Virus record (IMG/VR): IMGVR_UViG_3300025112_000023
Span: 1-48,891 of that record
Direction: 5' to 3' (one strand)
From: a virus
Length of the DNA stretch: 48,891 nt
Shown here: piece after piece, positions 26,901 to 48,260 of the stretch
Layout: each line of letters starts with the position of its first letter
Numbering within the stretch: position 1 is the first letter of the stretch
Made by a program: the position numbers and the translations under genes
The notes under the pieces: model-generated
Database searches by the model: none
Told to the model about the DNA's origin: nothing
The model's input: only the letters and a program-made list of their open reading frames with translations

Positions 26901-28631
26901 ATTCAAAGCAGAATAACCAAGAGCAGAATTGGACCCGCCCGTAGTATTTGAAATCATCACGTCACCACCAACTCCTGTATTAGTAGCACCTGTACTGGTC
27001 ACCAGTAGTGCATAAGCACCTACCCCAGTATTGTTGGCAGCAGTATTTTCACGTAGCGCTTGGTAGCCTATAGCCGTATTGTAACTAGATGTACTATTCG
27101 TCGATAAAGCCTTACTGCCGAGCGCAGTATTGGACCCACCCGTAGTTATAGAATCACCCGCAATGTTTCCAATCAGGGTGTTATGAGTTCCAGTGCTGAC
27201 TGCTACACCAGCTTGATAACCAAGTGCACTGTTATCGTTACCGGTGGCTACTTTAAGTGCTTCAAATCCAACTGCTGTTGCAGTTGTACCTGTAGACATT
27301 GTGAGCAACGCAGATGAGCCTACAGCAGTGTGACCACTTGCCGTGGTAACGGCCCCACCCGCGTTATCTCCGACAAAAGTATTATCAGCTCCGGTGGTAA
27401 CAGCATCACCAGCAGCATTGCCCACCAAAGTATTTTCAGTACCCGTGCTAACAGCCACACCTGACTGATAGCCCACCGCCGTATTGTTATTGCCCGTGGC
27501 AACCTTCAGCGCCTCAAATCCAACCGCAGTACCCGTAGTACCTGTGGACATTGTGAGCAACGCAGATGAACCTACTGCCGTATGGCCAGAAGCCGTAGTG
27601 ACAGCCCCTCCGGCATTATCACCAACGAAAGTATTGTCAGCGCCCGTAGTTACAGCGTCACCAGCAGCAGCTCCGACAGATACATTATCTACCCCGGTAG
27701 TGGCAGCAGTAAGCGCCTGATAACCAACCGCTACGTTACCAGCATCTGCGCCAGCATTTAATGTTGCTAATGCAGCTGATCCAACCGCTACATTTTGTCC
27801 GTTTCCATCTTCTGTTGCTAACGCTCCAGAACCAACTGCTGTATTGTCGCCACCCGTTGTTATGGCACCACCCGCATTATCTCCAATCAGGGTGTTATCT
27901 GAACCTGTTGTCACTGCGTCACCAGCCGAATCACCAACCGCAACATTATCTGTACCGGAAGTATTCGCAGTTAAAGCAGACGTACCGACAGCCACGTTAT
28001 TACTTGCAGTTGTGGCAACCAGTAAAGCACCGGAACCAATAGCTACATTAGATCCACCCGTAGTTATAGCGCCTGCTGCATTGTCCCCTACTGCCGTGTT
28101 ATCAGTACCCGTAGTCACTGCATCCAGCGCATTCTCACCGATAGCAACGTTATCCGTGCCGGTGGTGAGGGCCACACCCATCGCACCTGATCCAAGAGCG
28201 ATATTGCCGGTGCCGCCTAAGACATCAAGCACATCCGTAACCGCTGCACCTGATCCAGCCCCATCGGTTACAAGCATACGAATACCGCCAGACGGGATCA
28301 CTACATTAGCCCCGGTACCTTGCGAAATCGTAACCGCATCGCCTGCGTTATTCTCAATGCACCAGACTTTAGACAATGTATTAGGCGCGAGCGTGACTGT
28401 GCAGGCTTGTGACAAGCTACCAGTCAACTTCATGTTCATCGCACGGGCAGCATCAGAAGCCCCGTCTGCTACTGTGATAGTTGCGGTAGACGCATCGGAC
28501 AACGCTTCGCTGCCGACACTAAACGCCTCACCGATCAACTCTAAATTCGTGTTTGTAGTCGTTCCCCACGTACCTGATTCGTCGCCAGTTGCGATTTCTT
28601 TCAGTCGTAGATCATTTACATATGTCGCCAT
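23958..28631 (-). CDS. Long repetitive tail fibre with S74 self-cleaving chaperone
   Basis: This is a 1557-residue fibre or spike. The N-terminus (MATYVNDLRLKEIATGDESG and TWGTTTNTNLELIGEAF) is a typical marine-phage fibre attachment segment. From about residue 145 to 1400 the protein is an almost unbroken array of 17-residue repeats of the form TTGTDNVAIGENALDAV, about 70 by length. They resemble trimeric autotransporter (YadA/Hia) head repeats, which fold as a left-handed beta-roll. The last 125 residues are a peptidase S74 intramolecular chaperone (SDARDKTDVKDLDVG, LEFINQLQPKTYRWDQR), ending in a helical MLVNAIQELSAEIETLKKE. In known cases this domain trimerises the fibre and then cleaves itself off before the Ser of the SDxRxK motif. 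Role in receptor binding is inferred. Confidence 0.88.
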   Translation of the reverse strand: MATYVNDLRLKEIATGDESGTWGTTTNTNLELIGEAFSVGSEALSDASTATITVADGASDAARAMNMKLTGSLSQACTVTLAPNTLSKVWCIENNAGDAVTISQGTGANVVIPSGGIRMLVTDGAGSGAAVTDVLDVLGGTGNIALGSGAMGVALTTGTDNVAIGENALDAVTTGTDNTAVGDNAAGAITTGGSNVAIGSGALLVATTASNNVAVGTSALTANTSGTDNVAVGDSAGDAVTTGSDNTLIGDNAGGAITTGGDNTAVGSGALATEDGNGQNVAVGSAALATLNAGADAGNVAVGYQALTAATTGVDNVSVGAAAGDAVTTGADNTFVGDNAGGAVTTASGHTAVGSSALLTMSTGTTGTAVGFEALKVATGNNNTAVGYQSGVAVSTGTENTLVGNAAGDAVTTGADNTFVGDNAGGAVTTASGHTAVGSSALLTMSTGTTATAVGFEALKVATGNDNSALGYQAGVAVSTGTHNTLIGNIAGDSITTGGSNTALGSKALSTNSTSSYNTAIGYQALRENTAANNTGVGAYALLVTSTGATNTGVGGDVMISNTTGGSNSALGYSALNANTTGSNNVAVGKQALDAITTVSGLTAVGYQALTANTSGTANVGVGYQALDANTTGANNTAVGYSSLSANTTGASNTALGTNALITNVSGAGNVGIGDGALYLNTGNYNTAIGQSALYNNAGGSNNVAISYQALKDNTSGQYNVAIGYESQKDATTGSSNISLGMRSMQNRTTGSYNIAIGHEALDTITTVSNLTAIGYQALKANSSGTANVGVGYQALVANSTGAANTAVGSNVLSTNTTGGELTALGYGALNANTTGSGSTALGYNALTVNTTGVNTAVGMQSLDANTTGTNNTAVGKASLSANTTASESVALGASALSSVSTAGALTAVGFRALRDNTSGAHNTAIGHESLMENESGSQNTAVGKYALKLNLGDSNTAVGYSSLDANTTGASNTAVGYNSLGANSTGASNVAIGISALAANTTADSNVAVGREALYNNTTGTQNIAVGRGALANNTTANSNVAIGQSALYTNETGAYNVAIGESALIDATSSSNVAVGYHASYETSSGQSNTAVGAYALLEATTGSNNVAVGYQALDAVTTTAGNTAIGYQALTANTAGSITAVGFSAGLSQTTGNNNTALGYSALYTNATTSNNTAVGHNALLLNVAANNTAVGSASLDANTTGAGNTAVGKSSLSANTTGVNNTALGYNSGVAITTGDHNVAIGYEALDSNTTGDENVAIGWQAGAASTAGGKFIAIGYGSMNTGDVSGNYNIGIGRYAMQNVSSGARNVGIGQGAIAATTTQHDNTALGNEALTANTAANNTAVGATSLDANTTGAGNTAVGKDSLTANSTGANNTALGFDAGLSVTTGSNNLFLGYQAGKSGSPGGAITTGSNEIVLGDENITEAHIQVDWTVASDARDKTDVKDLDVGLEFINQLQPKTYRWDQRSLYGDESDTHPDGTYKKDQLDVGFLAQDVNSLEEQLGFGKSDKKNLISSLSEDGQMYGLKYSKFVPMLVNAIQELSAEIETLKKEQN
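24440..28200 (-). repeat. 51-bp fibre repeat array
   Basis: About 70 diverged 17-codon units of the S74 fibre gene. A longer block of several units around 27160-27400 is nearly repeated around 27410-27660. Confidence 0.85.
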
Positions 28632-34544: not shown

Positions 34545-35102
34545 TTATTCAAATGGGGTAGCTAGGGTGCCGTCACCATGCAGATATGCTTCGCAATGCC
34601 AAACTGCCGCGCTGGTAGCGACCAGACGAATAATACCGCCCACAAGCCAACCTTGTGCCGCCGTCCCCAAATCAATGGTGTCGTCGTCACTGGCATCAGG
34701 GATGAAGGTGTTGTTGTCGGTTGCGGTGGCTGGATCAAAGATATAAGCAAAACCAGAGAACAAGTCACTGCTATTGTCTGTATTGATCTGGCCTGCGCCG
34801 GTAAAGGTGGTGCCAACAATGAACGTATAGTTCAAACCGGCAGCCGCCGTAGGTAGTGTTACCACAATACCCGCTGCTCTGTTCAGGGTATAAACCGTAC
34901 CTGAGTCGGTTGATTCAACGCTTTTGGTCGCAGACGTAATGCTGCTGACGTTGGAATAAGCCGAGACATAACCCGTCGTGGTGATATTACCACTGGTGTC
35001 AATGTCTAAGTTGGTCGTGATAGCTCCGGTTCCAGCAGTTTTGCTGATCTGCTCGAAGCCACCCTCTGAACGGACTGGGCCGTTAAAAGTCGTGTTAGCC
35101 AT
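34545..35102 (-). CDS. Probable head decoration or fibre-like structural protein
   Basis: This 185-residue protein begins MANTTFNGPVRSEGGFEQIS and is Thr/Ser/Gly-rich and beta-predicted (GIVVTLPTAAAGLNYTFIVG, AQGWLVGGIIRLVA). The ANTTFNGPVRSEGGF opening recurs in marine phages immediately downstream of the major capsid gene. GGAG lies six bases upstream of the ATG, which follows the terminator-like and parS-like elements. A capsid-decorating role is inferred from position. Confidence 0.65.
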   Translation of the reverse strand: MANTTFNGPVRSEGGFEQISKTAGTGAITTNLDIDTSGNITTTGYVSAYSNVSSITSATKSVESTDSGTVYTLNRAAGIVVTLPTAAAGLNYTFIVGTTFTGAGQINTDNSSDLFSGFAYIFDPATATDNNTFIPDASDDDTIDLGTAAQGWLVGGIIRLVATSAAVWHCEAYLHGDGTLATPFE

Positions 35103-35127
35103 GTAAGTCTCCTGTCTTGGCTAGTGT

Positions 35128-35157
35128 CTGCCAATGTTTCACATGAAACACTGACAG
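35128..35157 (-). ncRNA. Long hairpin in capsid-decoration intergenic mRNA
   Basis: On the transcribed (minus) strand this 30-base segment folds into one stem whose 14 base pairs are all Watson-Crick except two G-U pairs. The two centre-most bases would form the turn, so a pair or two next to them would open. The wobble pairs work only on the minus strand, which argues for an RNA structure such as an RNase III or stability element. There is no U-tract, so it is not a standard terminator. Its core is the parS-like palindrome. Confidence 0.5.
35135..35150. promoter_or_regulatory. parS-like ParB-binding palindrome
   Basis: The sequence TGTTTCACATGAAACA differs at one position from the widespread bacterial parS consensus TGTTTCACGTGAAACA. 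It lies between the major capsid gene and the next gene. No parA or parB gene is visible in the window. It may bind a host ParB, or the match may be a by-product of the RNA hairpin in which it is embedded. Confidence 0.4.
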
Positions 35158-35164
35158 TCAGGAT

Positions 35165-35202: not shown

Positions 35203-36141
35203 TCAGCTTGCGCCGGGTGATCCGTAGATTCCCAACGGGTCAGAAACACCGAAAGAATAACGTTCACGCGCTTTATAGCGCACGTTACCCGTATCGAAGT
35301 CGCCGTCCATACTGTTTTCCATTGCCGTTCTCTCGAACATTTTCAGGCCGTTTGGAACGTCTGTAACGAGAAACCAAGCATTGGTGTCCGTCAGGTAATG
35401 GTTTACCGAATACCCTTCCGGAATCGTACCGTTCGCTCGAATCGCATTGATGTCGTTGTCCGCTGTCGCTACACGTCCTTCGGACTCTAGGATGCGGGTT
35501 GCAACAAACATCAGATTCGGCGGGATAACCAGCTTACGCGGTCTGGCTGCTATCAGCAGTCCGCGTTCGTCAGTCCAGCCAGCAATTGCAATAACTGCCG
35601 CTTCCAGCGATGTCTCATTAAGATCCGCCGCTGTTGCAGGTCGATTATCGTTTTTGCCGCCAGTAACCAACGGGTGGCCATCACCACCAGTTACACCATC
35701 GCTAGACGCCGTGAACAGGTTAACCCCGTCCCCCGTCTGATAGCTATTGGTGAAACCGTTATTGAGCGGGTTTACAGCCTTCACCTGCTTGGTGTAAGCC
35801 ATAGCACGAGCCAGCGCTTTGGTATAGCGAGCCGAGAGCGAGTCATAGAGGTTATCCTCCATAGCTTCTTCTGTGATCGCAAATCCCATAGCAATGGTTT
35901 CGTGGTTATACCGAGCCGTGAAAGCCTCTTGCGCTGCGTCATAACTGATCGCCGCACCTTCGTCCTTCACTGGAGCCGCCGCAAATCCAGAGAGTTTCAC
36001 TTCTTCCTCGAAAGATCGATCCGAAGATTCCGTCTCGTAGATTGCTTTGTGCTCGTCCTCGTATTTCCCATACTCCAACCCAAACAAGGCATTCAAGCCG
36101 GGGAGGAGTTCTTTCAACATCTGTGCGCGTGAAATCGCCAT
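35203..36141 (-). CDS. Major capsid protein
   Basis: This 312-residue protein has features of an HK97-fold major capsid protein: N-terminal MLKELLPGLNALFGLEYGKY, an early acidic helix, then FAAAPVKDEGAAISYDAAQE, FTARYNHETIAMGFAITEEA, a domain with LVIPPNLMFVATRILESEGR and a C-terminal YKARERYSFGVSDPLGIYGS. Capsids with GxAITEEAMEDN and the terminal RERYSFGVSDPLGIYG are typical of marine phages. The ribosome site AAGGAGG, eight bases before the ATG, is one of the strongest in the window, as expected for the most abundant protein. It follows scaffold and head genes and precedes a terminator. Confidence 0.9.
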   Translation of the reverse strand: MAISRAQMLKELLPGLNALFGLEYGKYEDEHKAIYETESSDRSFEEEVKLSGFAAAPVKDEGAAISYDAAQEAFTARYNHETIAMGFAITEEAMEDNLYDSLSARYTKALARAMAYTKQVKAVNPLNNGFTNSYQTGDGVNLFTASSDGVTGGDGHPLVTGGKNDNRPATAADLNETSLEAAVIAIAGWTDERGLLIAARPRKLVIPPNLMFVATRILESEGRVATADNDINAIRANGTIPEGYSVNHYLTDTNAWFLVTDVPNGLKMFERTAMENSMDGDFDTGNVRYKARERYSFGVSDPLGIYGSPGAS

Positions 36142-38579: not shown

Positions 38580-38783
38580 TCATTCCTCTACAAAAATCTT
38601 TTCGACAATTTCCTGAATATCACGTCTAGCAAACTGAACGCCTTCAATCTGTCCACGAAGCAATTCGTATTGACTAAAATTCTCAATAGCTCCGGTAATA
38701 ATAACGTCTTTTAAACGTGACTCCGTTTCGTTTAAACGCGACATTAACAAATCTATGAATCTCGGGTCAACAAAATCATTCAT
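38580..38783 (-). CDS. 67-residue conserved hypothetical helical protein
   Basis: This short helical protein (MNDFVDPRFIDLLMSRLNET, then YELLRGQIEGVQFARRDI) follows the portal gene with a TGATG overlap, the portal stop sharing the ATG. A GTTTAAAC copy falls inside it, read as RLN. Position between portal and the GroES-like gene suggests a head-assembly accessory. I know no function. Confidence 0.62.
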   Translation of the reverse strand: MNDFVDPRFIDLLMSRLNETESRLKDVIITGAIENFSQYELLRGQIEGVQFARRDIQEIVEKIFVEE

Positions 38784-41398
38784 CAGCGATTCTTCAACAG
38801 ACTATCAGCAATCTTGCGACCAATCTCTGCACCCTTCGCTTCCTGATCTGCGCTTATGCGGCGATCCCCCTGCTCATGCCCCAACAGACTATCAGCTATC
38901 TTACGGCCAATCTCTGCTCCTTTCGCTTCCTGATCCGCACTTACACGGCGATCCTTCTGTTCGCGCTCTGACTGTCGCTCGGCAACCTCTGCGCCAATCT
39001 TCGCCCCAGCCACACGTTCGTCGCTTGCGATCTTGAAACGTTGCAGATCGTCGCGCATCTGTGCTTTCTGGGCTTCCAGCTCCAGCTTCTGCTGTTCAGC
39101 TTGCTGTTTTGCTTGATCCGTCTGAACGTCTGCCTGTACCTTTTGCTTCTTGATTTCCAACTCTTCACGCTGCATTTGCATGATCGGGTCTTCTGCCATC
39201 TCCTGATTCTTCTGTTCCTGTATCTCTTGCTGATCTTTGCCAAGCAATTGTTCCGCTGCCTGTGCAACAAGCCCTGACAGGCGAGATTCGATCTCTTCTG
39301 GCAGTTCCGTTCCCAGCGGTGGTAATTCGATACCCAGCTCTCTTTCGATTTCGTCCCGGTACTTGAAAGCAAGGTGTTCGGTAACATGAGCTGACGCAGC
39401 CGCCAGTGTTGCCTCTGCTGTTGGTGAGTCCTCCATAGATTGCATAATCTTTGGGTCTTGCGCCATAGCCATATGCGTCTGTATATGCGCCTCATGATCC
39501 TGATACTGAAAGGCTTTAATAGGTCTGTTATTGAGCAGGCCCATATTCTCTGCTACCGGATCTTCCGGCTTCATATCGTCATCAACCGGAACAATCTTAT
39601 CCGGATCACGAATACCTAATACTCCCAACATTTGCCTGTGCAGAAGCGGCAAGTCGTAAAGTTGTGGCGCTTGGGCTGCTAACTGTAAAGCAGATTGATA
39701 TTGCATGATTCGCTGCGACATCGTGGCAGCATTCGGATTAGACACCGGTATCACATCCACGCGACGGTCAAAGTCCTCCGCAATGGCATCCGGATTGCCA
39801 TTCACATCATAGGGATAGGCGGGTGGTCCGAAGTCTTCAATGATAGTGACAAGTATCTTTAACTCATTTTTAAGGGACGCATGTAGTCTTGCCTGTATCG
39901 CTGACATGACCTTCATGTTCTTTTCCATCAGCGCCAAGGTGGTGCCCACCGGAGCCTGATTATTCATGTCCGACACCTTCACATCGGTGATGGCGGCGAA
40001 GCGCCTGCCCTCTTCAACGATGTTGTTCAGCAACTGAAACAGCGTTCCAGAGGGTTCTTTGTAAGGCAGGAAGGAAATATTCTCTTTGATGGTACCGCCG
40101 GGGACATCCACATCTCTGAACTCACCGGGCATAATAGGGGTGTCATCCCCTTTGATACGCATGCCGCGAGCCTTTAAGCCTCCGGGCAGGTTCGCCAGAG
40201 TACCCGCATCCACCAGCTGACGCAGCAGGGATGTTGCAGACTTGACCAAGCCACCAATCAGATGGATCAGTCCCAGTCCGTAAAACCCTAATCCCGGCAG
40301 ATATTCATAGTGTACGAAGTGAGTACGTCGTAGATGCAGCGGATCATCTTCATAATAGTTTCTACGAATGGACAGTATTGCGCCCGAATCTTTGTCAAGA
40401 GTGACAACATAGGGCAGCGCGATGCCCGTCTCCTCGCCATCCAGCATATCCTCGAAGCCGTCCAGATCCAGCTCGACGTGCATTTCCAGCAGGGTATGAA
40501 CGGAATCGCCACTCAAATACCCGGTATTACTCCGAGAGCTGGGGTTCTCACCAGTCAGCTCACCATACTTGGAGCGAACTTCATCAATATCCAGCTCGGT
40601 ATCAGAGATCTCTTCATCCCGATAAAAGCCATTAACTTGCAGTTTACGAATGTCATTCTTAGTCTTACGCATCACATGCGTAAGTCGGGTGGTGGTATTT
40701 AAGTCAGTAGCCCCATCAAACACCACCATGTCCTCAGACGGCACGAACATTGCACAAGGGCGTTCCATGTTCGGATCATGGTAAACTTTTTTAAACGCAC
40801 TCCCCGCGAGCGGCAGCGAGAACAGCATCCGCTCTGTCTCACTGCGGTATTCCGTCATGCGTTCGGTCATCAGGTAGTTCATGTAATCCTGTACCCGAGA
40901 AGCCTGCTCCTCTCTCTCACGGGTAACTTTGCCCATGATATGAGTTCTGGCCGGTCCTGCTGCCGGGAAGATTTCTGAGATTGCCTGTGACTGAAAGCGT
41001 ACTACGGCTTCAGCCAGCAGAGGATGATGCACCCCACAAGCACCGGGCCATGGGGTGGTGCGGTCTTCGACCTTTAACCCTAGCTGATCCAGCCCCGCCA
41101 TGTAGGCTTCTTCCCAATCACGACGGGATGCCTTGTCATCTTCATAAGCGCTTTGTAGTTCAGAGCCAATAGCATCCAATATGTGTTCATCGATATGTTC
41201 GGCAAGGTTAGCGTCGAACGGTATCTCGTCCGCTTCAAGTTCTGGCTGGAAATCAATAAGCATGCCGCCATCTTCTGTCTCGATAGATACGGTATCTGGA
41301 TTGTCAATACCAATTACAAGAGCCTCTTCATCTACTGCATCAAGGCGCTGTTGTAAATCGGCCATTTCCAAAGGCGTTATTGCTTTATCAACGGCCAT
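38783..41398 (-). CDS. Portal protein with C-terminal tandem repeats
   Basis: This 871-residue protein is the portal, the dodecameric ring through which DNA is packaged and ejected. Near the N-terminus TTPWPGACGVHHPLLAEAVV then RFQSQAISEIFPA is characteristic of podovirus portals. The middle has the YEYLPGLGFYGLGLIHLIGG and DVPGGTIKENISFLPYKEP parts of the family. From about residue 690 it becomes a Gln/Glu-rich coiled coil, the barrel end. The last 60 residues contain two near-exact 29-residue repeats (RRISADQEAKGAEIGRKIAD type), with a degenerate third before them. The AAGGAGG ribosome site precedes the ATG, and GTTTAAAC lies just upstream of that. Confidence 0.92.
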   Translation of the reverse strand: MAVDKAITPLEMADLQQRLDAVDEEALVIGIDNPDTVSIETEDGGMLIDFQPELEADEIPFDANLAEHIDEHILDAIGSELQSAYEDDKASRRDWEEAYMAGLDQLGLKVEDRTTPWPGACGVHHPLLAEAVVRFQSQAISEIFPAAGPARTHIMGKVTREREEQASRVQDYMNYLMTERMTEYRSETERMLFSLPLAGSAFKKVYHDPNMERPCAMFVPSEDMVVFDGATDLNTTTRLTHVMRKTKNDIRKLQVNGFYRDEEISDTELDIDEVRSKYGELTGENPSSRSNTGYLSGDSVHTLLEMHVELDLDGFEDMLDGEETGIALPYVVTLDKDSGAILSIRRNYYEDDPLHLRRTHFVHYEYLPGLGFYGLGLIHLIGGLVKSATSLLRQLVDAGTLANLPGGLKARGMRIKGDDTPIMPGEFRDVDVPGGTIKENISFLPYKEPSGTLFQLLNNIVEEGRRFAAITDVKVSDMNNQAPVGTTLALMEKNMKVMSAIQARLHASLKNELKILVTIIEDFGPPAYPYDVNGNPDAIAEDFDRRVDVIPVSNPNAATMSQRIMQYQSALQLAAQAPQLYDLPLLHRQMLGVLGIRDPDKIVPVDDDMKPEDPVAENMGLLNNRPIKAFQYQDHEAHIQTHMAMAQDPKIMQSMEDSPTAEATLAAASAHVTEHLAFKYRDEIERELGIELPPLGTELPEEIESRLSGLVAQAAEQLLGKDQQEIQEQKNQEMAEDPIMQMQREELEIKKQKVQADVQTDQAKQQAEQQKLELEAQKAQMRDDLQRFKIASDERVAGAKIGAEVAERQSEREQKDRRVSADQEAKGAEIGRKIADSLLGHEQGDRRISADQEAKGAEIGRKIADSLLKNR
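38799..38972 (-). repeat. Tandem 87-bp repeat in portal gene
   Basis: Two near-identical 87-bp units, offset exactly 29 codons, encode RRISADQEAKGAEIGRKIAD-type sequence at the portal C-terminus. The copies differ mainly at wobble positions, which means the duplication is old or under protein-level selection. Confidence 0.8.
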
Positions 41399-41430: not shown

Positions 41431-42954
41431 TTAATAATAATTGGCAATGCGAGGTACATCCGTACCCATCTCCTCATCGTCCTCAAGCGCAATGAATCCT
41501 CCTTGACGGAAACGTAGCAGGGCTTGGGTTGAAGAGTCCACTAGGTCATCATGATCACCTACCGGGAAGGCAGCAAACTGTTCGATGACCTCCTCTGCCC
41601 AGCGGGTCTTCGGTGCCCAGACCACACCTGATGCGAAGAAGTCAGCAACCGCATTAACCCTCGATACCTTATCATTGCCTCGCGTTGGGGTGTACTCCGT
41701 TACAGGGATTCCAATACGACGAAGCTCAAATATCAATGGCGCACCCGCTGCCTTTGCCTCAACGATGCAGGCATCTGGTCGCCACTCAAGATACATCTCC
41801 TGCGCCCTGACTTTAAGTTCAGGAAACTCCAGTCGCTCCTGTAAGGCGTCCAAGAGAATAATCTGCGGCATCTTCATACCGTCTTCGTTGTCTGCATAGA
41901 AGACGCCCCATGTAGTACAGGCTGAGTAGTCAGCGCGTTCATGCTTTAAAAACGCGGTATCCCATGATTGAATAATAAATGAGACGACAGGGGGCTGCCT
42001 TTCTTCCCACTCTCGCCACCACTCACGCTTAACAATAGCACTCTCTTCAGAGGTAGGTTGCTGCTGATACTGGGCTTCCCACTTGGAAACGGGCAGTGTA
42101 GCGCGGATTTTTTCCAGTTCATCAAGAGGCCAATAGTCTGGCCAAAGGCTATTGCCAGATGGTAAAATTGCAGGTAATTCAATAACTTCCCATTCATCTG
42201 AGCCTTCCCTTGTAATGGAATCGCGCATGATCTGTCCGCACAAATCCTTCTGGCTCCAGCGTGTCATCACAATAATGATGGCCCCACCGGGCTGTAACCG
42301 CTGTCTGGGACCGGAGGTGAACCATTCATAAGTATTGTCAAACACTTTGGGATCAGCTTGCTGCCCCTGCTGTTCGGAATGGGGATCGTCAATCACCAAG
42401 AGGTCCGCACCACGCCCCGTCACCGCGCCACCGACGCCCACTGAAAAGTATTCCCCACCGCCCGATACGTCGAAACGACCCGCCGCCTTGGAATCAGCCG
42501 TCAGCGACACATCAGGAAACAATTGCATGTATTCTTCACTACCAATGAGGTTACGCACCATCCGACCAAAGCGAACAGCAAGCTCTGCGGTGTGGGATGC
42601 CATGATTATCTTCTTATCGGGTGACCGACCCATGATCCATGCAGGCAACAACCACGACGTGAGCTGCGATTTACCCATACGCGGGGGCATATTGATCATT
42701 AAACGCTTCAGATCGCCTGTAGCGACCCTCTCAAACGCCTTAGCCATACTCCTATGATGCGCTCCCTCTATAAAAGCAGGCCAAACCCCAGCAGAAAACT
42801 CTAAGAACGACTCAGCCGCCTTCTCTTGCCGTATAGAAGTCTCTAATGACCCTAACAACCGCGACACTTCCTCCCTCTCCTTACTAGAAAGCATCAACAT
42901 CCTTTCAGGAGTCAACTGATCTTTAAGTTTTACGAACTGTTGTTCTATTGACAT
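41431..42954 (-). CDS. terL: Terminase large subunit
   Basis: This 507-residue protein is the packaging ATPase and nuclease. The Walker A motif is MPPRMGKSQL at about residues 89-98, Walker B is LLVIDDPH near residue 185, and the coupling motif follows in IIIVMTRWSQKDL. The C-terminal nuclease domain shows SWDTAF near 321 and DHDDLVDSSTQALL near 473, giving the acidic metal ligands of the RNase H-like fold. It follows terS, separated by the oxygenase-like gene, and precedes the portal. The ribosome site GAAGG lies only two bases before the ATG, so the start is not certain, but no better one is visible. Confidence 0.95.
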   Translation of the reverse strand: MSIEQQFVKLKDQLTPERMLMLSSKEREEVSRLLGSLETSIRQEKAAESFLEFSAGVWPAFIEGAHHRSMAKAFERVATGDLKRLMINMPPRMGKSQLTSWLLPAWIMGRSPDKKIIMASHTAELAVRFGRMVRNLIGSEEYMQLFPDVSLTADSKAAGRFDVSGGGEYFSVGVGGAVTGRGADLLVIDDPHSEQQGQQADPKVFDNTYEWFTSGPRQRLQPGGAIIIVMTRWSQKDLCGQIMRDSITREGSDEWEVIELPAILPSGNSLWPDYWPLDELEKIRATLPVSKWEAQYQQQPTSEESAIVKREWWREWEERQPPVVSFIIQSWDTAFLKHERADYSACTTWGVFYADNEDGMKMPQIILLDALQERLEFPELKVRAQEMYLEWRPDACIVEAKAAGAPLIFELRRIGIPVTEYTPTRGNDKVSRVNAVADFFASGVVWAPKTRWAEEVIEQFAAFPVGDHDDLVDSSTQALLRFRQGGFIALEDDEEMGTDVPRIANYY

Positions 42955-43117: not shown

Positions 43118-43768
43118 TTACCAAAACATGATTAATTTATCTCTATCACATCTAACTATGTGACCCTGAAGCGTAATTCTGTACTCATTTTCCCTATATT
43201 TTTTAAAACTAGCCACTTTGTGTCGTTTCTTCCCATCCTGTATTACCATTTCACCCACAACATGCGGATAATAACCAGAATCGAAGTCCATTCCTCCACC
43301 GCCAGTGGGCAGCATGATTGGGAGTGTAAACGTATTCACATCTTTAACACCCAAACCTAAAGTTATGTGTGGAAGATCAATGTGCCAACCGCCAGAAATA
43401 GATAATGACCTTTCATCTGAAGGAAATATGTGAAAACCCGGTAGCGCTAAGAGCGGATCATAAAATAATTTCTCCCCTAACTCCCTACCAAGCACTTCAC
43501 CAACCCGTTTGTACAATGGTGCAAAGGTTTTTATCAACAAACCATTCAATTTCTTAGCGCCAGAGAAATATTCCGCAGTATTGCCATCAAGATAAGCAGA
43601 TTTGCCTAACGTAAAGAACGGAAAGTCGTTTGATCGTGACTCCCACAGCTCCTTTAACCCCAAAACAGAGTCAACAACCTCACCCATTGGGTAATCTACA
43701 CCTACCCTATTTAAACTTGGCTCTTCTATCGCGGGATCTATAACGTTTTCGTAAACAGATATTGACAT
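43118..43768 (-). CDS. 2OG-Fe(II) oxygenase-like protein, moron-type
   Basis: This 216-residue protein has a probable double-stranded beta-helix with GGWHIDLPHITLGLG, giving His129-x-Asp131, then FTLPIMLPTGGGGMDF and a distal His203 in LQGHIVRCDRD with Arg206 after it. This HxD...H layout is that of 2OG/Fe(II) oxygenases, although homology to a named family is uncertain. It splits terS from terL. It has its own promoter-like sequence upstream and a hairpin downstream and is flanked by unusual non-coding gaps, so it looks like a separately transcribed cargo (moron) gene. Its substrate is unknown. Confidence 0.6.
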   Translation of the reverse strand: MSISVYENVIDPAIEEPSLNRVGVDYPMGEVVDSVLGLKELWESRSNDFPFFTLGKSAYLDGNTAEYFSGAKKLNGLLIKTFAPLYKRVGEVLGRELGEKLFYDPLLALPGFHIFPSDERSLSISGGWHIDLPHITLGLGVKDVNTFTLPIMLPTGGGGMDFDSGYYPHVVGEMVIQDGKKRHKVASFKKYRENEYRITLQGHIVRCDRDKLIMFW

Positions 43769-43798
43769 ATCATTGCCATCCTAGATGGGACCCAAAGT

Positions 43799-43826
43799 GT
43801 TTTATGGGGGTGGGGGGTCATGTCAA
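43799..43826 (-). promoter_or_regulatory. Sigma70-like promoter for the oxygenase moron
   Basis: On the minus strand TTGACA (43826-43821) is followed after 16 bases by TAAAAC (43804-43799), about 30 bases before the ATG at 43768. The -35 is perfect and the -10 matches at four of six positions. The spacer is C-rich (two C-tracts). Confidence 0.5.
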
Positions 43827-43869
43827 TAGCTTGTAAGGGCAAATCTATAATTTTGGTAGTCGTTCGTGT

Positions 43870-43947
43870 GAAAAGCTATATAAGAGGGTGCGCGGAGTCC
43901 CGCGTGCGCGTGCGGGGGGGCGGGGGGGCGCATAATGCGCGGGATTG
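43870..43947. other. G-tract and hairpin segment downstream of terS
   Basis: This segment contains CGCGG-AGTC-CCGCG (hairpin), two runs of seven Gs separated by one C (43914-43928), and the palindrome GCGCAT-A-ATGCGC (43928-43940), directly behind the terS stop. The G-runs could form a G-quadruplex on the plus strand. Phage packaging recognition sites are often next to terS, so this is a candidate pac or cos region, unproven. Confidence 0.35.
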
Positions 43948-44394
43948 TCAAGCGCTTGGAGGCTCATTTGTGCCAACAATCGCGTTTAAACGCTCCAACA
44001 CGTCTTCAGGATCGTCGATGCGCTCACTCACTACGTGAGATTGCTCCACATATAGCCTCGATACCTTGCCCGCATAATGCGCGGCCTGTATTGCGGCGCT
44101 GAACTGTCCCGCATCCTCTGCTGACTTGCTGAGTTCTTCCATCCTCGCCACGTGATGCGCCAAAGAAACGCGCTCATCACGCTCATTCTCGCTTACGCAG
44201 CGTGCAATCTCGCTCTGTACCTTCGGTAACTTATAAAGCTTATATCCAACATCGGCTGCATTCCCACCAGCCTTGTAACCCGCTCGCACTGCTGCATCTC
44301 TCTTCGAGAGTCCTTCGGCGCAATACCGCGCAAATAGGCGCTGCTTGACCGTAAGACCATCTCGACCACTCGGGATATCAACGACCTTTCCCAC
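43948..44394 (-). CDS. terS: Terminase small subunit
   Basis: This 148-residue protein is a small terminase of Terminase_2 type (PF03592-like): VKQRLFARYCAEGLSKRDAA, VRAGYKAGGNAADVGYKLY, then VQSEIARCVSENERDERVSL. The N-terminal helix-turn-helix would bind the packaging site, and the rest is the helical oligomerisation part. The start is GTG at 44394, with CGGAG eight bases upstream; the GTTTAAAC palindrome (44396-44403) lies between that site and the start. It is the first gene of the leftward late region. A GTTTAAAC copy also falls within the gene 33 bases before the stop. Confidence 0.88.
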   Translation of the reverse strand: MGKVVDIPSGRDGLTVKQRLFARYCAEGLSKRDAAVRAGYKAGGNAADVGYKLYKLPKVQSEIARCVSENERDERVSLAHHVARMEELSKSAEDAGQFSAAIQAAHYAGKVSRLYVEQSHVVSERIDDPEDVLERLNAIVGTNEPPSA

Positions 44395-44460: not shown

Positions 44461-44489
44461 TTGACATGTTTAAACGAGTCAGGCAATGT
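44461..44489 (+). promoter_or_regulatory. Candidate promoter for the rightward genes
   Basis: TTGACA is followed after 17 bases by CAATGT, a weak -10. A GTTTAAAC copy (44468-44475) lies in the spacer, so a protein bound there would block polymerase or alternatively recruit it. The distance to the ATG at 44520 is about 30 bases. Confidence 0.4.
44468..44475. repeat. GTTTAAAC in rightward promoter spacer
   Basis: Lies one base after the TTGACA box in the divergent control region, a position where a bound protein would affect transcription. Confidence 0.8.
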
Positions 44490-44497
44490 TGAGACGA

Positions 44498-44513
44498 ATC
44501 GCAACAAACGGAG
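44498..44513 (+). promoter_or_regulatory. Conserved leader copy 1
   Basis: ATCGCAACAAACGGAG, six bases before the ATG of the SprT-like gene; the end is the ribosome site. Confidence 0.7.
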
Positions 44514-44519
44514 CACGAA

Positions 44520-45134
44520 ATGACCGATACCAACTACGTTGATAGAGAGACATGGCTAAACGCTGCGGCTATCCTGCTGCAAGCAGAAGTCTTTACACTC
44601 GCACAGATCCCTGCCGAGGCATGGGAGACGAAACAGTACCGCATCACTTGCGGTTTCCCTTTGGGATATCGCGGAAGTAGAACAGGTAAGGTGACCCTTG
44701 GTCAGGCGTTTGATCCCAGTATAAGCGCTGATGGTACATACGAAGTATGTATTAACCCCATCTTGGACGAACCCATAAGGGTTCTGGATGTGCTTGCTCA
44801 TGAATTGGTTCATGTGTATGCAGGGATTGCCTGTGGTCACCGAGGTGACTTTAAGACCATCGCTAGAGGGATTGGGCTTACCGGGCCGCTTACAGCGACT
44901 GTCGCCAGTAGTGGACTTGAGCAGACCCTTAAGGGTATTGCCGAGCAACTAGGTAGCTACCCACATGCAGCGATCAATCCGTCGCTTCGTAAGAAGCAAG
45001 GCACCAGACTGCTGAAACTTCAGTGCAGTGAATGCGGGTTCATCGCTCGTATCACTGCTAAATGGGCACATCGTATAACGGCTTTTAGCCGCTGCCCGGT
45101 GTGTGACGAAATCACGACTCTCGAAGTCGTTTAA
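44520..45134 (+). CDS. SprT-like zinc metalloprotease with zinc ribbon
   Basis: This 204-residue protein has the motif HELVHVYAGIACGH near residues 94-107, the HExxH plus downstream His of gluzincin-like SprT proteins. A C-terminal zinc ribbon follows: CSECGF (about 168) and CPVC (about 192). SprT/Spartan relatives cut proteins on DNA or have regulatory roles; in phages the target is unknown. It is the first gene of the rightward region, with the leader ATCGCAACAAACGGAG seven bases before the ATG. The stop codon is the TAA of a GTTTAAAC palindrome, so the protein ends in Val. It forms a likely operon with the AAA ATPase 23 bases downstream. Confidence 0.72.
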   Translation: MTDTNYVDRETWLNAAAILLQAEVFTLAQIPAEAWETKQYRITCGFPLGYRGSRTGKVTLGQAFDPSISADGTYEVCINPILDEPIRVLDVLAHELVHVYAGIACGHRGDFKTIARGIGLTGPLTATVASSGLEQTLKGIAEQLGSYPHAAINPSLRKKQGTRLLKLQCSECGFIARITAKWAHRITAFSRCPVCDEITTLEVV

Positions 45135-45136
45135 AC
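45129..45136. repeat. GTTTAAAC supplying a stop codon, then leader
   Basis: Ends the SprT-like gene as GTT TAA AC and runs directly into the leader ATCGCAACAAGGAG of the ATPase gene. Confidence 0.85.
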
Positions 45137-45150
45137 ATCGCAACAAGGAG
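45137..45150 (+). promoter_or_regulatory. Conserved leader copy 2
   Basis: ATCGCAACAAGGAG before the ATPase gene, adjoining a GTTTAAAC copy. Confidence 0.75.
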
Positions 45151-45157
45151 CAAACTT

Positions 45158-46252
45158 ATGTTTGACCATTCTACCAAAATCAAGCCTGAAACGGCAGCAT
45201 ATATGGCTAAAAAGTTAGCGTCGATTACATCCGTTAACGCGGACCTCGATGCTAGCCAGCGCGCCATACTCAAGCGGCTGGCAGTTGCCTACGGCAAACC
45301 AGTCAACAGCCCCATAAGGGAACTGATCAGCCTATGGCTGCATGGACCGGACGCTGGCAGTGCGAACGTTGGCGAAGCCATCAGCTCAGCCATCAATGAC
45401 GCCCTACGGGATATCAACGGCATGAACGAGACACAGATCAAGGATCTGGTACGAAAAGAAGCCGAGCGTATCGTCAGAGACGAGTTCACACAGCCACCAC
45501 GGGAGATAGTCCTACGGACTGGCAGCGGCAGCAAAACACTGCCTGCTGAGACACGACACGAAGTGTTCGAGGACGTGCTGATGTTCATCGCGCAGCGTGA
45601 GAGTGTCTACCTTGTAGGTCCAGCCGGATCAGGTAAGACGACGCTTGCAAAGCAAGCAGCCGACGCACTTGAGCTACCATTCTACTCGACGGGGGCGCTA
45701 GTCATGAAGCATGAGCTTGAAGGGTTCATTGATCCGCATGGCAACTACGTTGAGACCGAGTTTTACAAAGCGTTTAAACATGGCGGCGTATTTCTCTTCG
45801 ATGAGATCGACGGCTCGTCCCCGGCGGCAGTGCTGGCGTTCAACGGCCACATGGCCAACGGCATCGCATCATTCCCCTGCGGCATGGTCGAGCGTCACCC
45901 AGACTTCGTTGTGATCGCAGCAGCGAACACATACGGGAATGGTGCAGATAGACAGTACGTCGGACGTAATCAACTAGATGCCGCCAGCCTAGATCGATTC
46001 GCGTTTCTATCCATGAACTACGATGAGGTGTTCGAAACAGACATATGTGCAGACTCAGATTGGGCCTCGCATGTCCAGCGCATCAGGCAAACGACCAACG
46101 AATTAAAAATTCGTCACATCGTCTCGCCTCGCGCAAGCATCAAGGGTGCTCGCATGCTGGCCGCTGGCATGGATCAGGAAAAGGTTGAGCAAGCGTACAT
46201 CTGGAAGGGACTCGAAGAGTCCGACATCGAGAAAATAAAAGCGGGATGTTAA
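45158..46252 (+). CDS. MoxR/CobS-type AAA ATPase
   Basis: This 364-residue protein carries a AAA+ ATPase of the MoxR/CbbQ/CobS type. Walker A is GPAGSGKTT near residue 154, Walker B is VFLFDEID near 210, sensor 1 is IAAANTYG near 253 and the arginine region is LDRFAF near 278. The region before residue 135 is a mostly helical domain without a recognised family. MoxR-type ATPases act with VWA-domain partners in assembling or activating other proteins. The gene follows the SprT-like gene with its own leader, and its stop lies just upstream of the next gene; an earlier ATG for that gene would overlap it. Confidence 0.85.
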   Translation: MFDHSTKIKPETAAYMAKKLASITSVNADLDASQRAILKRLAVAYGKPVNSPIRELISLWLHGPDAGSANVGEAISSAINDALRDINGMNETQIKDLVRKEAERIVRDEFTQPPREIVLRTGSGSKTLPAETRHEVFEDVLMFIAQRESVYLVGPAGSGKTTLAKQAADALELPFYSTGALVMKHELEGFIDPHGNYVETEFYKAFKHGGVFLFDEIDGSSPAAVLAFNGHMANGIASFPCGMVERHPDFVVIAAANTYGNGADRQYVGRNQLDAASLDRFAFLSMNYDEVFETDICADSDWASHVQRIRQTTNELKIRHIVSPRASIKGARMLAAGMDQEKVEQAYIWKGLEESDIEKIKAGC

Positions 46253-46278
46253 CAGGGGTTGACACGCCGTTTCGATTC

Positions 46279-46293
46279 ATCGCAACATATAGG
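46279..46293 (+). promoter_or_regulatory. Conserved leader copy 3 (diverged)
   Basis: ATCGCAACATATAGG before the chosen ATG at 46297. It decides the start of that gene against the ATG at 46246. Confidence 0.5.
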
Positions 46294-46296
46294 CAA

Positions 46297-47154
46297 ATGA
46301 GGGCAGACATGTACACATACAAACGAGATTGGGACGAGTTCCTTGCCGACATCGAAAGCCGAGAGATCGGTAAGGCATGGACATCACCGTCAAGCATGGA
46401 CAGCGACGGGTATGAATTCACCGGAACGCACACATGGGATGAAGCGCACACACTACTGAAGCATGGCTGGCGTGAGGGTCGGTCAAAACTGGCCGAGGCG
46501 ACCGAGTTTGCTAAAGCAACCACACATCAGGGTACTGCCGAGGCATGGCAGCATGCCCCGGCTGGAGCGTTCCCGAATGTACCAGCATACTGCGCTGGCA
46601 TAGCCGAGTGCATGATGACGCCGCCCGGTGAGGAGCAGCGCTCATCGATGCCTATCGTGACCATTGCGGTCAACATTGGAGCCGCTGCATTTACCCCAAC
46701 CAACATGATGATCAATCGAGGTGCGGCCATTGTCGCTTTAATCGACAGCATCGAGGCGCAAGGTCAGCGGGTCGAGTTGATCTGCTGCACCCGTACCCAG
46801 TTATCTAATAACGACGGACACCTAGTGATGCACGTCACAGTGAAACGTGCCGAAGAGCACGTCAATCTGGATCGCATCGCCTTTGCCATGGCACACCCCA
46901 GTATGCTCCGTCGCATGAAGTTCAGGGTTCAGGAGTTCACCTTGCCGAAGGTCGAGCACGGCTACGGCATCTCAAGAGATTTTGAAGAAGAGGATTTCGA
47001 TCTTGGCACGATGTATGTGCCACACTTCCCACACAGTCGCAGTAAACAGCGCGACATGTACGGGACTGAAGAGCGAGCAGTGCAGACGATGGCCGAGATG
47101 TGGCAGAGTGCCACCACTGCATGGCAAGCCAATCAACTAGATGAAGCTGTTTAA
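46297..47154 (+). CDS. AAA-partner protein of DUF7192 type
   Basis: This is 285 residues from the ATG at 46297, chosen because the recurring leader (ATCGCAACATATAGG) stands just before it. An in-frame ATG at 46246 would overlap the ATPase stop, and an ATG at 46309 has GAGG before it. The sequence contains YKRDWDEFLADIES, EAHTLLKHGWREGR, a Pro-rich AYCAGIAECMMTPPG and a beta-rich VTIAVNIGAAAFTPTNMMIN. This matches proteins I associate with DUF7192, which in phages commonly follow a MoxR/CobS-like ATPase and may be VWA-like. The stop codon is the TAA within a GTTTAAAC copy, so the protein ends in Val. Confidence 0.62.
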   Translation: MRADMYTYKRDWDEFLADIESREIGKAWTSPSSMDSDGYEFTGTHTWDEAHTLLKHGWREGRSKLAEATEFAKATTHQGTAEAWQHAPAGAFPNVPAYCAGIAECMMTPPGEEQRSSMPIVTIAVNIGAAAFTPTNMMINRGAAIVALIDSIEAQGQRVELICCTRTQLSNNDGHLVMHVTVKRAEEHVNLDRIAFAMAHPSMLRRMKFRVQEFTLPKVEHGYGISRDFEEEDFDLGTMYVPHFPHSRSKQRDMYGTEERAVQTMAEMWQSATTAWQANQLDEAV

Positions 47155-47156
47155 AC
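47149..47156. repeat. GTTTAAAC supplying a stop codon, then leader
   Basis: Ends the DUF7192-type gene as GTT TAA AC, two bases before the leader of the zinc-binding protein gene. Confidence 0.85.
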
Positions 47157-47158
47157 AC

Positions 47159-47173
47159 ATCGCAACAAAGGAG
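47159..47173 (+). promoter_or_regulatory. Conserved leader copy 4
   Basis: ATCGCAACAAAGGAG before the zinc-binding protein gene. Confidence 0.75.
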
Positions 47174-47180
47174 ATATGAC

Positions 47181-47390
47181 ATGACGACAAAGCATAACTG
47201 CGGCGGCCCTGTCTTCGGACGCAAGACACCCGGCTGCCCAAGGTGTGACGAATTGCTGGCGGGTGCTGAACCCGTCCGCTGGGGATGGGATGAAAGACGC
47301 GAAGAACAAGCGCGACGAATCGCGGCCATCCGTGCACATGATTGCGTCGAAAGCAGATGCGGTCGTGTCTGCACTGCATTCGAATGGTGA
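47181..47390 (+). CDS. Small zinc-binding protein
   Basis: This 69-residue protein (MTTKHNCGGPVFGRKTPGCP, RCDEL) has a CxxC pair (CPRC) plus further Cys and His residues (HDCVESRCGRVC). The opening NCGGPxFGRKxPGCPRCDEL and the ending CTAFEW are shared with small zinc-finger-like proteins in many phages; the function is unknown to me. The leader ATCGCAACAAAGGAG precedes the ATG. Confidence 0.72.
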   Translation: MTTKHNCGGPVFGRKTPGCPRCDELLAGAEPVRWGWDERREEQARRIAAIRAHDCVESRCGRVCTAFEW

Positions 47391-47393
47391 TAA

Positions 47394-47408
47394 ATCGCAA
47401 CAAAGGAG
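47394..47408 (+). promoter_or_regulatory. Conserved leader copy 5
   Basis: ATCGCAACAAAGGAG before the gene at 47416; it decides that start. Confidence 0.75.
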
Positions 47409-47415
47409 AACGATT

Positions 47416-47688
47416 ATGCGTAAGAATCCACACTCCCCAGTACTGACGGGGTTGCTGTTTCACACCCAGTGGCAATTGTCTGGTGTACCCGTGTACATAC
47501 GCCGACACTATGGCGGCTGGCTCGTGACCTACCAAGTTGCGGATGATCCCCGTTATTGTGCCGAAATGCACTTCGGGAATGCAGGCGCATGGAATGATGC
47601 GAGGAGATTCGCGTCAGATAAGAAGCGGCTTCTACTTGAAGCCATTAACATCGCAACAAAGGAGAACGATGATGAGCAAAGTGATTGA
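47416..47688 (+). CDS. 90-residue hypothetical protein
   Basis: The ATG at 47416 is chosen because the leader ATCGCAACAAAGGAG stands seven bases before it. The protein is MRKNPHSPVLTGLLFHTQWQ, then IRRHYGGWLVTYQVADDPRY and a helical charged C-terminus. The end of the gene contains another copy of the leader, which serves the next gene. There is no membrane segment or known motif. Confidence 0.62.
   Translation: MRKNPHSPVLTGLLFHTQWQLSGVPVYIRRHYGGWLVTYQVADDPRYCAEMHFGNAGAWNDARRFASDKKRLLLEAINIATKENDDEQSD
47650..47664 (+). promoter_or_regulatory. Conserved leader copy 6 (inside a gene)
   Basis: ATCGCAACAAAGGAG lies in the 3' end of the gene at 47416-47688 and is read there as NIATKE, while serving the gene starting at 47669. 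Confidence 0.75.
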
Positions 47689-47908
47689 TAGGTACGTGAA
47701 AGCTAACCCCGACAAATTCTATAGCTGGCACACGGAGTATGATGGATATGGGGAGGACTATAACTACGACCTGCCTAGTTATTGGGTTTACTGTAACGAG
47801 GGATACATTTGCCCAGAGAAAGAATGCGGCACCATTCACACGAAGACAGTCAAAGAAGCAATGAGACTTATGCGAACCGTTGTGGAGGTGCAGCATGACG
47901 GCGTATAA
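47669..47908 (+). CDS. 79-residue hypothetical protein
   Basis: The start ATG at 47669 (or the next ATG at 47672) follows the leader (47650-47664). The protein is MMSKVIDRYVKANPDKFYSW, then EYDGYGEDYNYDLPSYWVYC, with Cys residues in CNEGYICPEKECGT that could hold zinc. It overlaps the gene before it by 20 bases and the gene after it by 14. No family recognised. Confidence 0.6.
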   Translation: MMSKVIDRYVKANPDKFYSWHTEYDGYGEDYNYDLPSYWVYCNEGYICPEKECGTIHTKTVKEAMRLMRTVVEVQHDGV

Positions 47909-48074
47909 AGTAACCGTAAGGGCTGAAACGCTCACCACCTATTACGTCGAGGCAGAAGACGCAGACCACGCAGAGGACATCCTCCGATGCGAGGGATTAC
48001 AGGTTTTTATGCCATACGAAACGCGGATTCTGCGCGACGATTATGATGTTGTCTCAGTGGAGGAGCAAGCATGA
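47895..48074 (+). CDS. 59-residue hypothetical protein
   Basis: The ATG at 47895 has GGAG seven bases before it. The sequence MTAYKVTVRAETLTTYYVEA then EDADHAEDILRCEG looks like a small alpha-beta domain with the YxVxAxDxxxA pattern seen in several short phage proteins. It ends SVEEQA, and its stop overlaps the next ATG (ATGA). Confidence 0.6.
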   Translation: MTAYKVTVRAETLTTYYVEAEDADHAEDILRCEGLQVFMPYETRILRDDYDVVSVEEQA

Positions 48075-48238
48075 CTGATCTTGAGGACGTGCTCGATAAG
48101 ATGCACGCAGACCTGATGGCGCTCGGATACGCTGACATGGCAAACGATTTGATCGACTGCGTATACGAGTGGACGCTTTTAGGTTACTGGGGGTTGTCAT
48201 CAAAAGACCTACCCAACTACTTCGACGACACTGTTTAA
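48071..48238 (+). CDS. 55-residue hypothetical protein
   Basis: Translated by hand: MTDLEDVLDKMHADLMALGY, then ADMANDLIDCVYEWTLLGYW and GLSSKDLPNYFDDTV. The ATG overlaps the previous stop, and its own stop is the TAA in a GTTTAAAC palindrome, again giving a terminal Val. It is helical and acidic; no family is recognised. Confidence 0.68.
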   Translation: MTDLEDVLDKMHADLMALGYADMANDLIDCVYEWTLLGYWGLSSKDLPNYFDDTV

Positions 48239-48240
48239 AC
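48233..48240. repeat. GTTTAAAC supplying a stop codon, then leader
   Basis: Ends the 55-residue gene as GTT TAA AC, one base before the leader of the next gene. Confidence 0.85.
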
Positions 48241-48241
48241 A

Positions 48242-48260
48242 ATCGCAACAACAAAAGGAG
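48242..48260 (+). promoter_or_regulatory. Conserved leader copy 7 (long variant)
   Basis: ATCGCAACAACAAAAGGAG before the gene at 48269; it has an extra four bases in the A-rich part. Confidence 0.7.

Follow-up and report, generated by a model that had tools for sequence, protein, structure and literature searches.

Repeated sequences placed directly before gene starts have been described in two groups of phages, and these are the closest counterparts of the element analyzed here, a short leader preceding the rightward, non-structural genes of a marine phage represented by one IMG/VR virus record (IMGVR_UViG_3300025112_000023; 48,891 bases, hereafter the window). T4-like phages reportedly carry cassettes called PeSLs in their short early intergenic gaps, each combining a repeated stem-loop, an early promoter, a short leader, and a Shine-Dalgarno (SD) sequence. 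A passage of PMC4503421 cites Arbiol 2010 and Comeau 2014 for the PeSLs of T4-like phages. In Cluster K mycobacteriophages, the start-associated sequence (SAS) is a short asymmetric repeat that contains the SD and lies before the starts of non-structural genes in one orientation, with 11 to 19 copies per genome; it is rare in other phages, has conserved bases outside the SD that do not pair with 16S rRNA, and its function is not known (PMC3203893, PMC11373665, PMC12699233). A subset of SAS, termed ESAS, has an upstream SigA-like promoter and a 17-bp inverted repeat (PMC11373665). We propose that the leader in the window is not an ordinary ribosome site but a portable 5' leader and translation-initiation module that serves early genes, a reading to which we assign a probability of about 0.6.

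The preliminary description of this DNA had likened the leader to mycobacteriophage SAS, a likeness that holds for position and for the restriction to non-structural genes and breaks down at the sequence itself. Like SAS, the leader stands directly before starts in one orientation, and its conserved bases are not limited to those pairing with 16S rRNA. Unlike SAS, with its consensus GGGATAGGAGCCC, it reads ATCGCAACA(AA)GGAG, occurs in another phage group with a probably Gram-negative host, and varies in the distance between its conserved part and the SD. Compared with ESAS, the clade of the window phage has TTGACA promoters with the palindrome GTTTAAAC in the spacer or with GTTACTATAGTAAC-like palindromes, and the 17-bp repeat was not seen. 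The leader resembles PeSLs in its many repeated units in early-region gaps, and Escherichia phage kvi (RB49-type, T4-like) has a close variant, TATAATACACACATCGAAACAAAGGAGG, that is nearly the same. Stem-loops, which in PeSLs lie next to the promoter, are enriched 5' of the leaders as a group, though not present at each. However, the leader here reads CGCAACA and that of PeSLs CGAAACA, and a sigma-70 promoter is not part of every unit (12 of 61 early genes with the leader). The window phage is also not T4-like, its nearest terminase large subunit (TerL) matches being DSL-LC04, 023Pt_psg01, and Pelagibacter phages HTVC027P/023P. Since the element departs from both SAS and PeSL in at least one defining feature, we regard it as a member of neither and as a variant of the start-associated or early-leader kind.

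A conserved leader before the rightward genes

The record is a fragment and breaks off within the early region. Its leftward genes are structural and include those for the major head protein (35203-36141), the portal (38783-41398), and the terminase large subunit (41431-42954); a short series of rightward genes occupies the stretch from 44520 to the record end. The preliminary description had reported a leader just before seven rightward starts, and we observed ATCGCAAC on the plus strand at the first base of each of these seven leaders (Table 1). The single minus-strand copy of ATCGCAAC, at 28595, is intragenic and not ahead of any start, and no leader was found before the leftward genes of the window, in agreement with that description. 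Its remark that the rightward genes starting at 47895, 48071, and 48442 lack the leader and overlap the preceding gene was also borne out, with overlaps of 4 to 14 nt. The single consensus proposed for the leader stands for the invariant portion, ATCGCAACA, and not for the rest. The exact 15-mer ATCGCAACAAAGGAG occurs in only three window copies, the ribosome part differs among leaders (ACGGAGC, AAGGAG, ACAAAAGGAG, and a weak site at 46279), and the SD is displaced or poor at 44520 and 46309.

Allowing up to 3 mismatches to the 15-mer, we counted 6 matches, compared with a shuffle mean of 1.4, and none of 100 shuffles reached 6. TCGCAAC is not over-represented overall (8 copies vs 6.8 expected, both strands), but 7 of the 8 copies lie no more than 45 nt ahead of one of the 10 rightward starts (binomial P ~1e-16, or ~2e-12 once all 7-mers are allowed for).

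Relatives were collected by a TerL search of IMG/VR that returned 80 loci. Loci with a TerL at least 76% identical generally have the early-strand leader together with many copies of GTTTAAAC, or GTTTAAAC only when they are short and hold no early genes, and loci with a TerL at most ~70% identical have neither. The motif search in the genome and its relatives that the preliminary description had suggested thus found a leader conserved in the clade and absent in sister groups: only plain SD sequences were found in the named sister phages DSL-LC04, HTVC027P, and 023Pt_psg01, and sister groups with a similar gene plan have the leader at 0 to 1 gene in each of 5 genomes. By gene class, with approximate counts from a home-made gene caller, the leader precedes 50 of 120 early-strand genes with an upstream gap of at least 15 nt, 11 of 101 early-strand genes without a gap, and 13 of 425 structural-strand genes. 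When clade genomes were aligned in pairs, which are non-independent samples, 25 of 31 leader copies (81%) are kept, compared with 19 of 74 other CGCAAC words (26%). Orthologues of gene 44520, with protein identity down to 34%, retain TCGCAAC in almost every one of 28 distinct upstream regions while the surrounding sequence and the SD distance change, and CGCAAC is present in 15 of 17 distinct regions upstream of orthologues of the AAA ATPase gene 45158. Judging from this conservation among relatives, the leader is under selection.

The distance from CGCAAC to the start ranges from 6 to 38 nt in relatives, where extra bases or a G-rich hairpin can precede the SD. In two relatives (L021 and L190), the G-rich hairpins GAGGGGGCTTGGCCCCC and GGGGGGGCTTGTCCCCCC separate CGCAACA from AAGGAG, as though a looped-out hairpin could be accommodated by the leader. 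Because its spacing to the SD is variable, CGCAAC is an element separate from the SD. The retention of TCGCAAC across these spacings also upholds the earlier statement that the part before the ribosome site is not needed for pairing with 16S rRNA, and pairing of ATCGCAACA with the 16S 3' end was rejected as impossible past the SD.

These observations bear on the idea of a strong but otherwise ordinary ribosome site of the host type, perhaps with additional 16S rRNA pairing. Consistent with this idea, the leader is common to unrelated phages, and GCAACAAAGGA is a perfect complement of 11 nt of Escherichia coli 16S rRNA (1118-1128, helix 39 region), although E. coli may not represent the host. 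However, the conserved ATC ahead of GCAAC is unpaired at 16S 1118-1128, many leaders keep CGCAAC although inserted bases between it and AAGGAG disrupt the 11-mer, and ATCGCAACA pairs with E. coli 16S rRNA no better than its own shuffles. Plain SDs, moreover, serve the structural genes of the same phages and the genes of sister phages. We therefore consider an ordinary ribosome site improbable; the 11-nt match, which conservation does not track, is noted as a lead. A common phage ribosome site was likewise rejected since, apart from one group of large phages, matches to the exact 15-mer outside the clade are scattered and mostly single. An Rfam search returned no family at the leaders. The sole match in a genome-collection search was a metagenome-assembled genome labelled Cytophagaceae, which lacks the exact 13-mer and is possibly a binning artefact.

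Early promoters and unrelated large phages

Two features of the leader go beyond the preliminary description: a link to promoters with a predicted transcription start, and the presence of GTTTAAAC before or overlapping many leaders. A TTGACA-type promoter lies within 90 nt of 12 of the 61 early genes with the leader, compared with 1 of 160 early genes without it and 1 of 427 late (structural-strand) genes. The geometry of the promoter predicted before leader 1 recurs at orthologous leaders in four relatives (L201, L007, L009, and L011), and several orthologues of 44520 read TTGACA-N17-(C/T)A(A/T)TGT-N10-CGCAAC. In the clade, this context generally comprises TTGACA, ~17 nt, a -10 element (CAATGT, TATTGT, or TACTAT), and mostly 9-13 nt to CGCAAC. 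Gene 48269 differs in context between genomes, with GTTTAAAC in the window and the promoter-like sequence TTGACA-N17-TTTACA in the relative L201, and the leader is present in both.

Large phage contigs (70-210 kb) that lack GTTTAAAC also contain the exact 15-mer and have dozens of TTGACA-N17-TATAAT-ACA(T/C)AC-ATCGCAACAAGGAG-N5-8-ATG units per genome. Unclassified large phages (L105, L129, L147, L157, L317, L351, L368, and L386) have dozens of near-identical TTGACA-N17-TATAATACATACATCGCAACAAGGAG-ATG units per genome, often with an inverted repeat within the promoter spacer. We scanned for TATAAT-N3..7-CATCGCAACA followed by an SD and a start. Among the matches listed, 101 of 107 distinct TATAAT-CATCGCAACA-SD-start units from unrelated large phages have exactly N5, compared with a flat distribution over gap lengths (5, 6, 9, 7, and 5) for TATAAT-CATCGCAACA without a start. 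With the usual 7 nt from the -10 element to +1, this arrangement puts the predicted transcript start at the A of ATCGCAACA.

The recurrence of the leader in unrelated phages argues that it is read by the host or acts purely in cis, rather than through a partner encoded by this phage. The preliminary description had suggested binding by a protein or small RNA, and an RNA operator of this kind, where a protein or small RNA of the phage recognizes ATCGCAACA and thereby switches the translation of the early genes together, would suit the strict sequence, its limitation to non-structural genes, and its retention without a promoter and at variable SD distances. However, no phage RNA-binding candidate was recognized among the proteins tested, no conserved intergenic antisense was found besides the leaders' own complements, and the unrelated large phages, which have the leader without GTTTAAAC, would require the same partner. 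A dedicated phage partner is thus not supported, and we regard an RNA operator as unlikely. For mycobacteriophage Adephagia, DUF3310 has been suggested to partner the SAS (PMC11373665). As a partner here it was rejected, being absent from the clade records tested and present only in one sister record without the leader.

Three points weigh against a portable module tied to transcript starts. The large phages have 8 nt between the -10 element and CGCAAC, and in the clade this distance is looser. No promoter is recognizable at most leaders, at least 5 of the 7 window leaders among them, so that the promoter link cannot account for the retention of CGCAACA there. Finally, the strict CG in CGCAAC exceeds the needs of an unstructured A/C-rich leader. 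Nonetheless, since the leader is kept when promoterless within operons, we favor a function exerted by the RNA, the simplest being translation initiation.

A palindrome distributed over the genome

The 8-mer GTTTAAAC occurs in 21 window copies, compared with ~0.7 expected, and in 347 copies in 11 clade records, against an expectation of 0.2-2 per record; relatives have 7-48 copies per record. In 73% of cases, a Y precedes it and an R follows. Window sites include 2053, 3071, 7685, 20173, 33099, 33142, 33172, 41420, 43984, and 44396. Enrichment within 30 nt of gene boundaries is about threefold, yet two thirds of the sites are found away from them, in most cases within genes. Aligned sites were kept in 10 of 10 cases between the window and the relative G014 (77% identity) and in 21 of 25 between G005 and G006 (75% identity), compared with 17-22% for control words of the same composition. 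Conservation in relatives is mostly 55-100%, against 4-22% for similar words, and sites deep in genes were kept in 60 of 75 comparisons. This retention inside genes argues for a function at the DNA level that is separate from the leader. GTTTAAAC has the appearance of a DNA-binding or modification site specific to the clade and is probably bound by a phage DNA-binding protein; it may be a stronger discovery than the leader. Like the stoperators of Cluster A mycobacteriophages, of which tens of copies of one asymmetric site are spread genome-wide, some at the early promoter and gene boundaries (PMC9283540), GTTTAAAC has tens of copies over the genome, some at such positions. Unlike stoperators, it is a palindrome with two thirds of its sites away from gene boundaries.

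In three window leaders, GTTTAAAC lies 0-2 nt upstream of ATCGCAAC. Promoterless leaders often stand immediately 3' of GTTTAAAC or overlap it, in relatives as GTTTAAACGCAACAAAGGAG; 21 of 101 leaders overlap the palindrome, and 13 more have it within 10 nt. Stem-loops are also enriched 5' of leaders (mean z -1.55 +/- 0.18, n=101) compared with late genes (-0.47 +/- 0.09). The overlap of the palindrome with CGCAAC (GTTTAAACGCAACA) and the fixed +1 position in large phages could indicate that the leader is kept only as a DNA element, as initial transcribed sequence and/or part of the GTTTAAAC site, with no role in translation. We find this very unlikely, as most GTTTAAAC sites, including the conserved intragenic ones, have no adjacent CGCAAC, many leaders have neither a promoter nor GTTTAAAC, and the leader is on the sense strand ahead of a start.

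Working model, neighboring features, and implications

In the portable-module reading, AUCGCAACA would be followed by a short A/C-rich stretch, a strong SD, and the start codon. The complete form would lie directly 3' of a sigma-70 type early promoter, and the first transcribed base would be the A of AUCGCAACA or a base 1-3 nt from it. The leader would then be the first stretch to be transcribed and, being open and unstructured, would also offer the 30S subunit a place to land. Between genes of an early operon, GTTTAAAC, often with a stem-loop, would take the promoter's place, and the leader would have a single role, as the site where translation starts between cistrons. Overlapping genes would be translationally coupled to their neighbor and need no leader. 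GTTTAAAC would be a separate DNA-level element that overlaps the first early promoter in the window. A broader proposal, which we hold to be rather unlikely, is that AUCGCAACA is a shared 5'-terminal initiation signal, read by a conserved host factor, on which unrelated phages have converged or which they have exchanged for early mRNAs, and that the early genes of the clade are additionally wired by a genome-wide GTTTAAAC network bound by a phage protein.

Table 1. Leaders, predicted promoter elements, and GTTTAAAC sites in the early region of the window
Feature	Position	Strand	Context
Predicted early promoter	44461..44489	+	TTGACA 44461-44466, 17-nt spacer, CAATGT 44484-44489; before leader 1
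GTTTAAAC	44468-44475		Inside the 17-nt spacer of the first early promoter
Leader 1, ATCGCAACAAACGGAG	44498..44513	+	Before gene 44520 (HEXXH metalloprotease-like, phrog_6361)
GTTTAAAC	45129..45136		Adjoins leader 2; provides the TAA stop of the preceding gene
Leader 2, ATCGCAACAAGGAG	45137..45150	+	Before gene 45158 (AAA ATPase)
TTGACA	46259-46264	+	Upstream of leader 3; no -10 element at the usual distance
Leader 3, ATCGCAACATATAGG	46279-46293	+	Before gene 46309 (DUF7192)
GTTTAAAC	47149..47156		Before leader 4; contains the stop codon of the preceding gene
Leader 4, ATCGCAACAAAGGAG	47159..47173	+	Before gene 47181
Leader 5, ATCGCAACAAAGGAG	47394..47408	+	Before gene 47416
Small stem-loop, GGCTTC-TACTT-GAAGCC	47627..47643	+	Directly 5' of leader 6
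Leader 6, ATCGCAACAAAGGAG	47650..47664	+	Before gene 47669 (or 47672)
GTTTAAAC	48233..48240		Before leader 7; contains the stop codon of the preceding gene
Leader 7, ATCGCAACAACAAAAGGAG	48242..48260	+	Before gene 48269

The first rightward gene (44520-45134) encodes a SprT-like protein with a HEXXH motif (HELVH) and zinc-finger-like cysteines, and its family, phrog_6361, has no known function; the AAA ATPase gene and then the DUF7192 gene lie downstream. Between the leftward gene at 43118-43768 and the small terminase gene, also leftward, a G-rich non-coding block (43770-43950) contains GC-rich inverted repeats and CGCATAATGCGC. Similar blocks are present in two relatives (L027 and L040), and the block is a candidate packaging site or RNA. 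A match to Rfam RF03012 (Mu-gpT-DE RNA) adjoins the major head protein gene on the minus strand, both in the window (35100-35163) and in a relative (L274:1753-1804). An early protein of the relative G012 (L274:15263-15565) has a SutA RNA-polymerase-binding domain (PF20661). SutA is known from Pseudomonas, and the domain may indicate that the host is gammaproteobacterial and that the protein acts on its RNA polymerase. Relatives also encode early HTH proteins, such as that at L274:17685-18257.

The GTTTAAAC network represents a strongly selected genome-wide site in a group of marine phages, and among the titles and abstracts of the literature searched, we found no prior report of it and nothing relevant on GTTTAAAC in phages. 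To our knowledge, the start-associated sequences of mycobacteriophages have remained unexplained since 2011. The leader described here provides a second, independent start-associated example, from marine phages, and its positional link to predicted transcription starts and the occurrence of an almost identical leader in unrelated large phages suggest that such elements mark the 5' ends of early transcripts.

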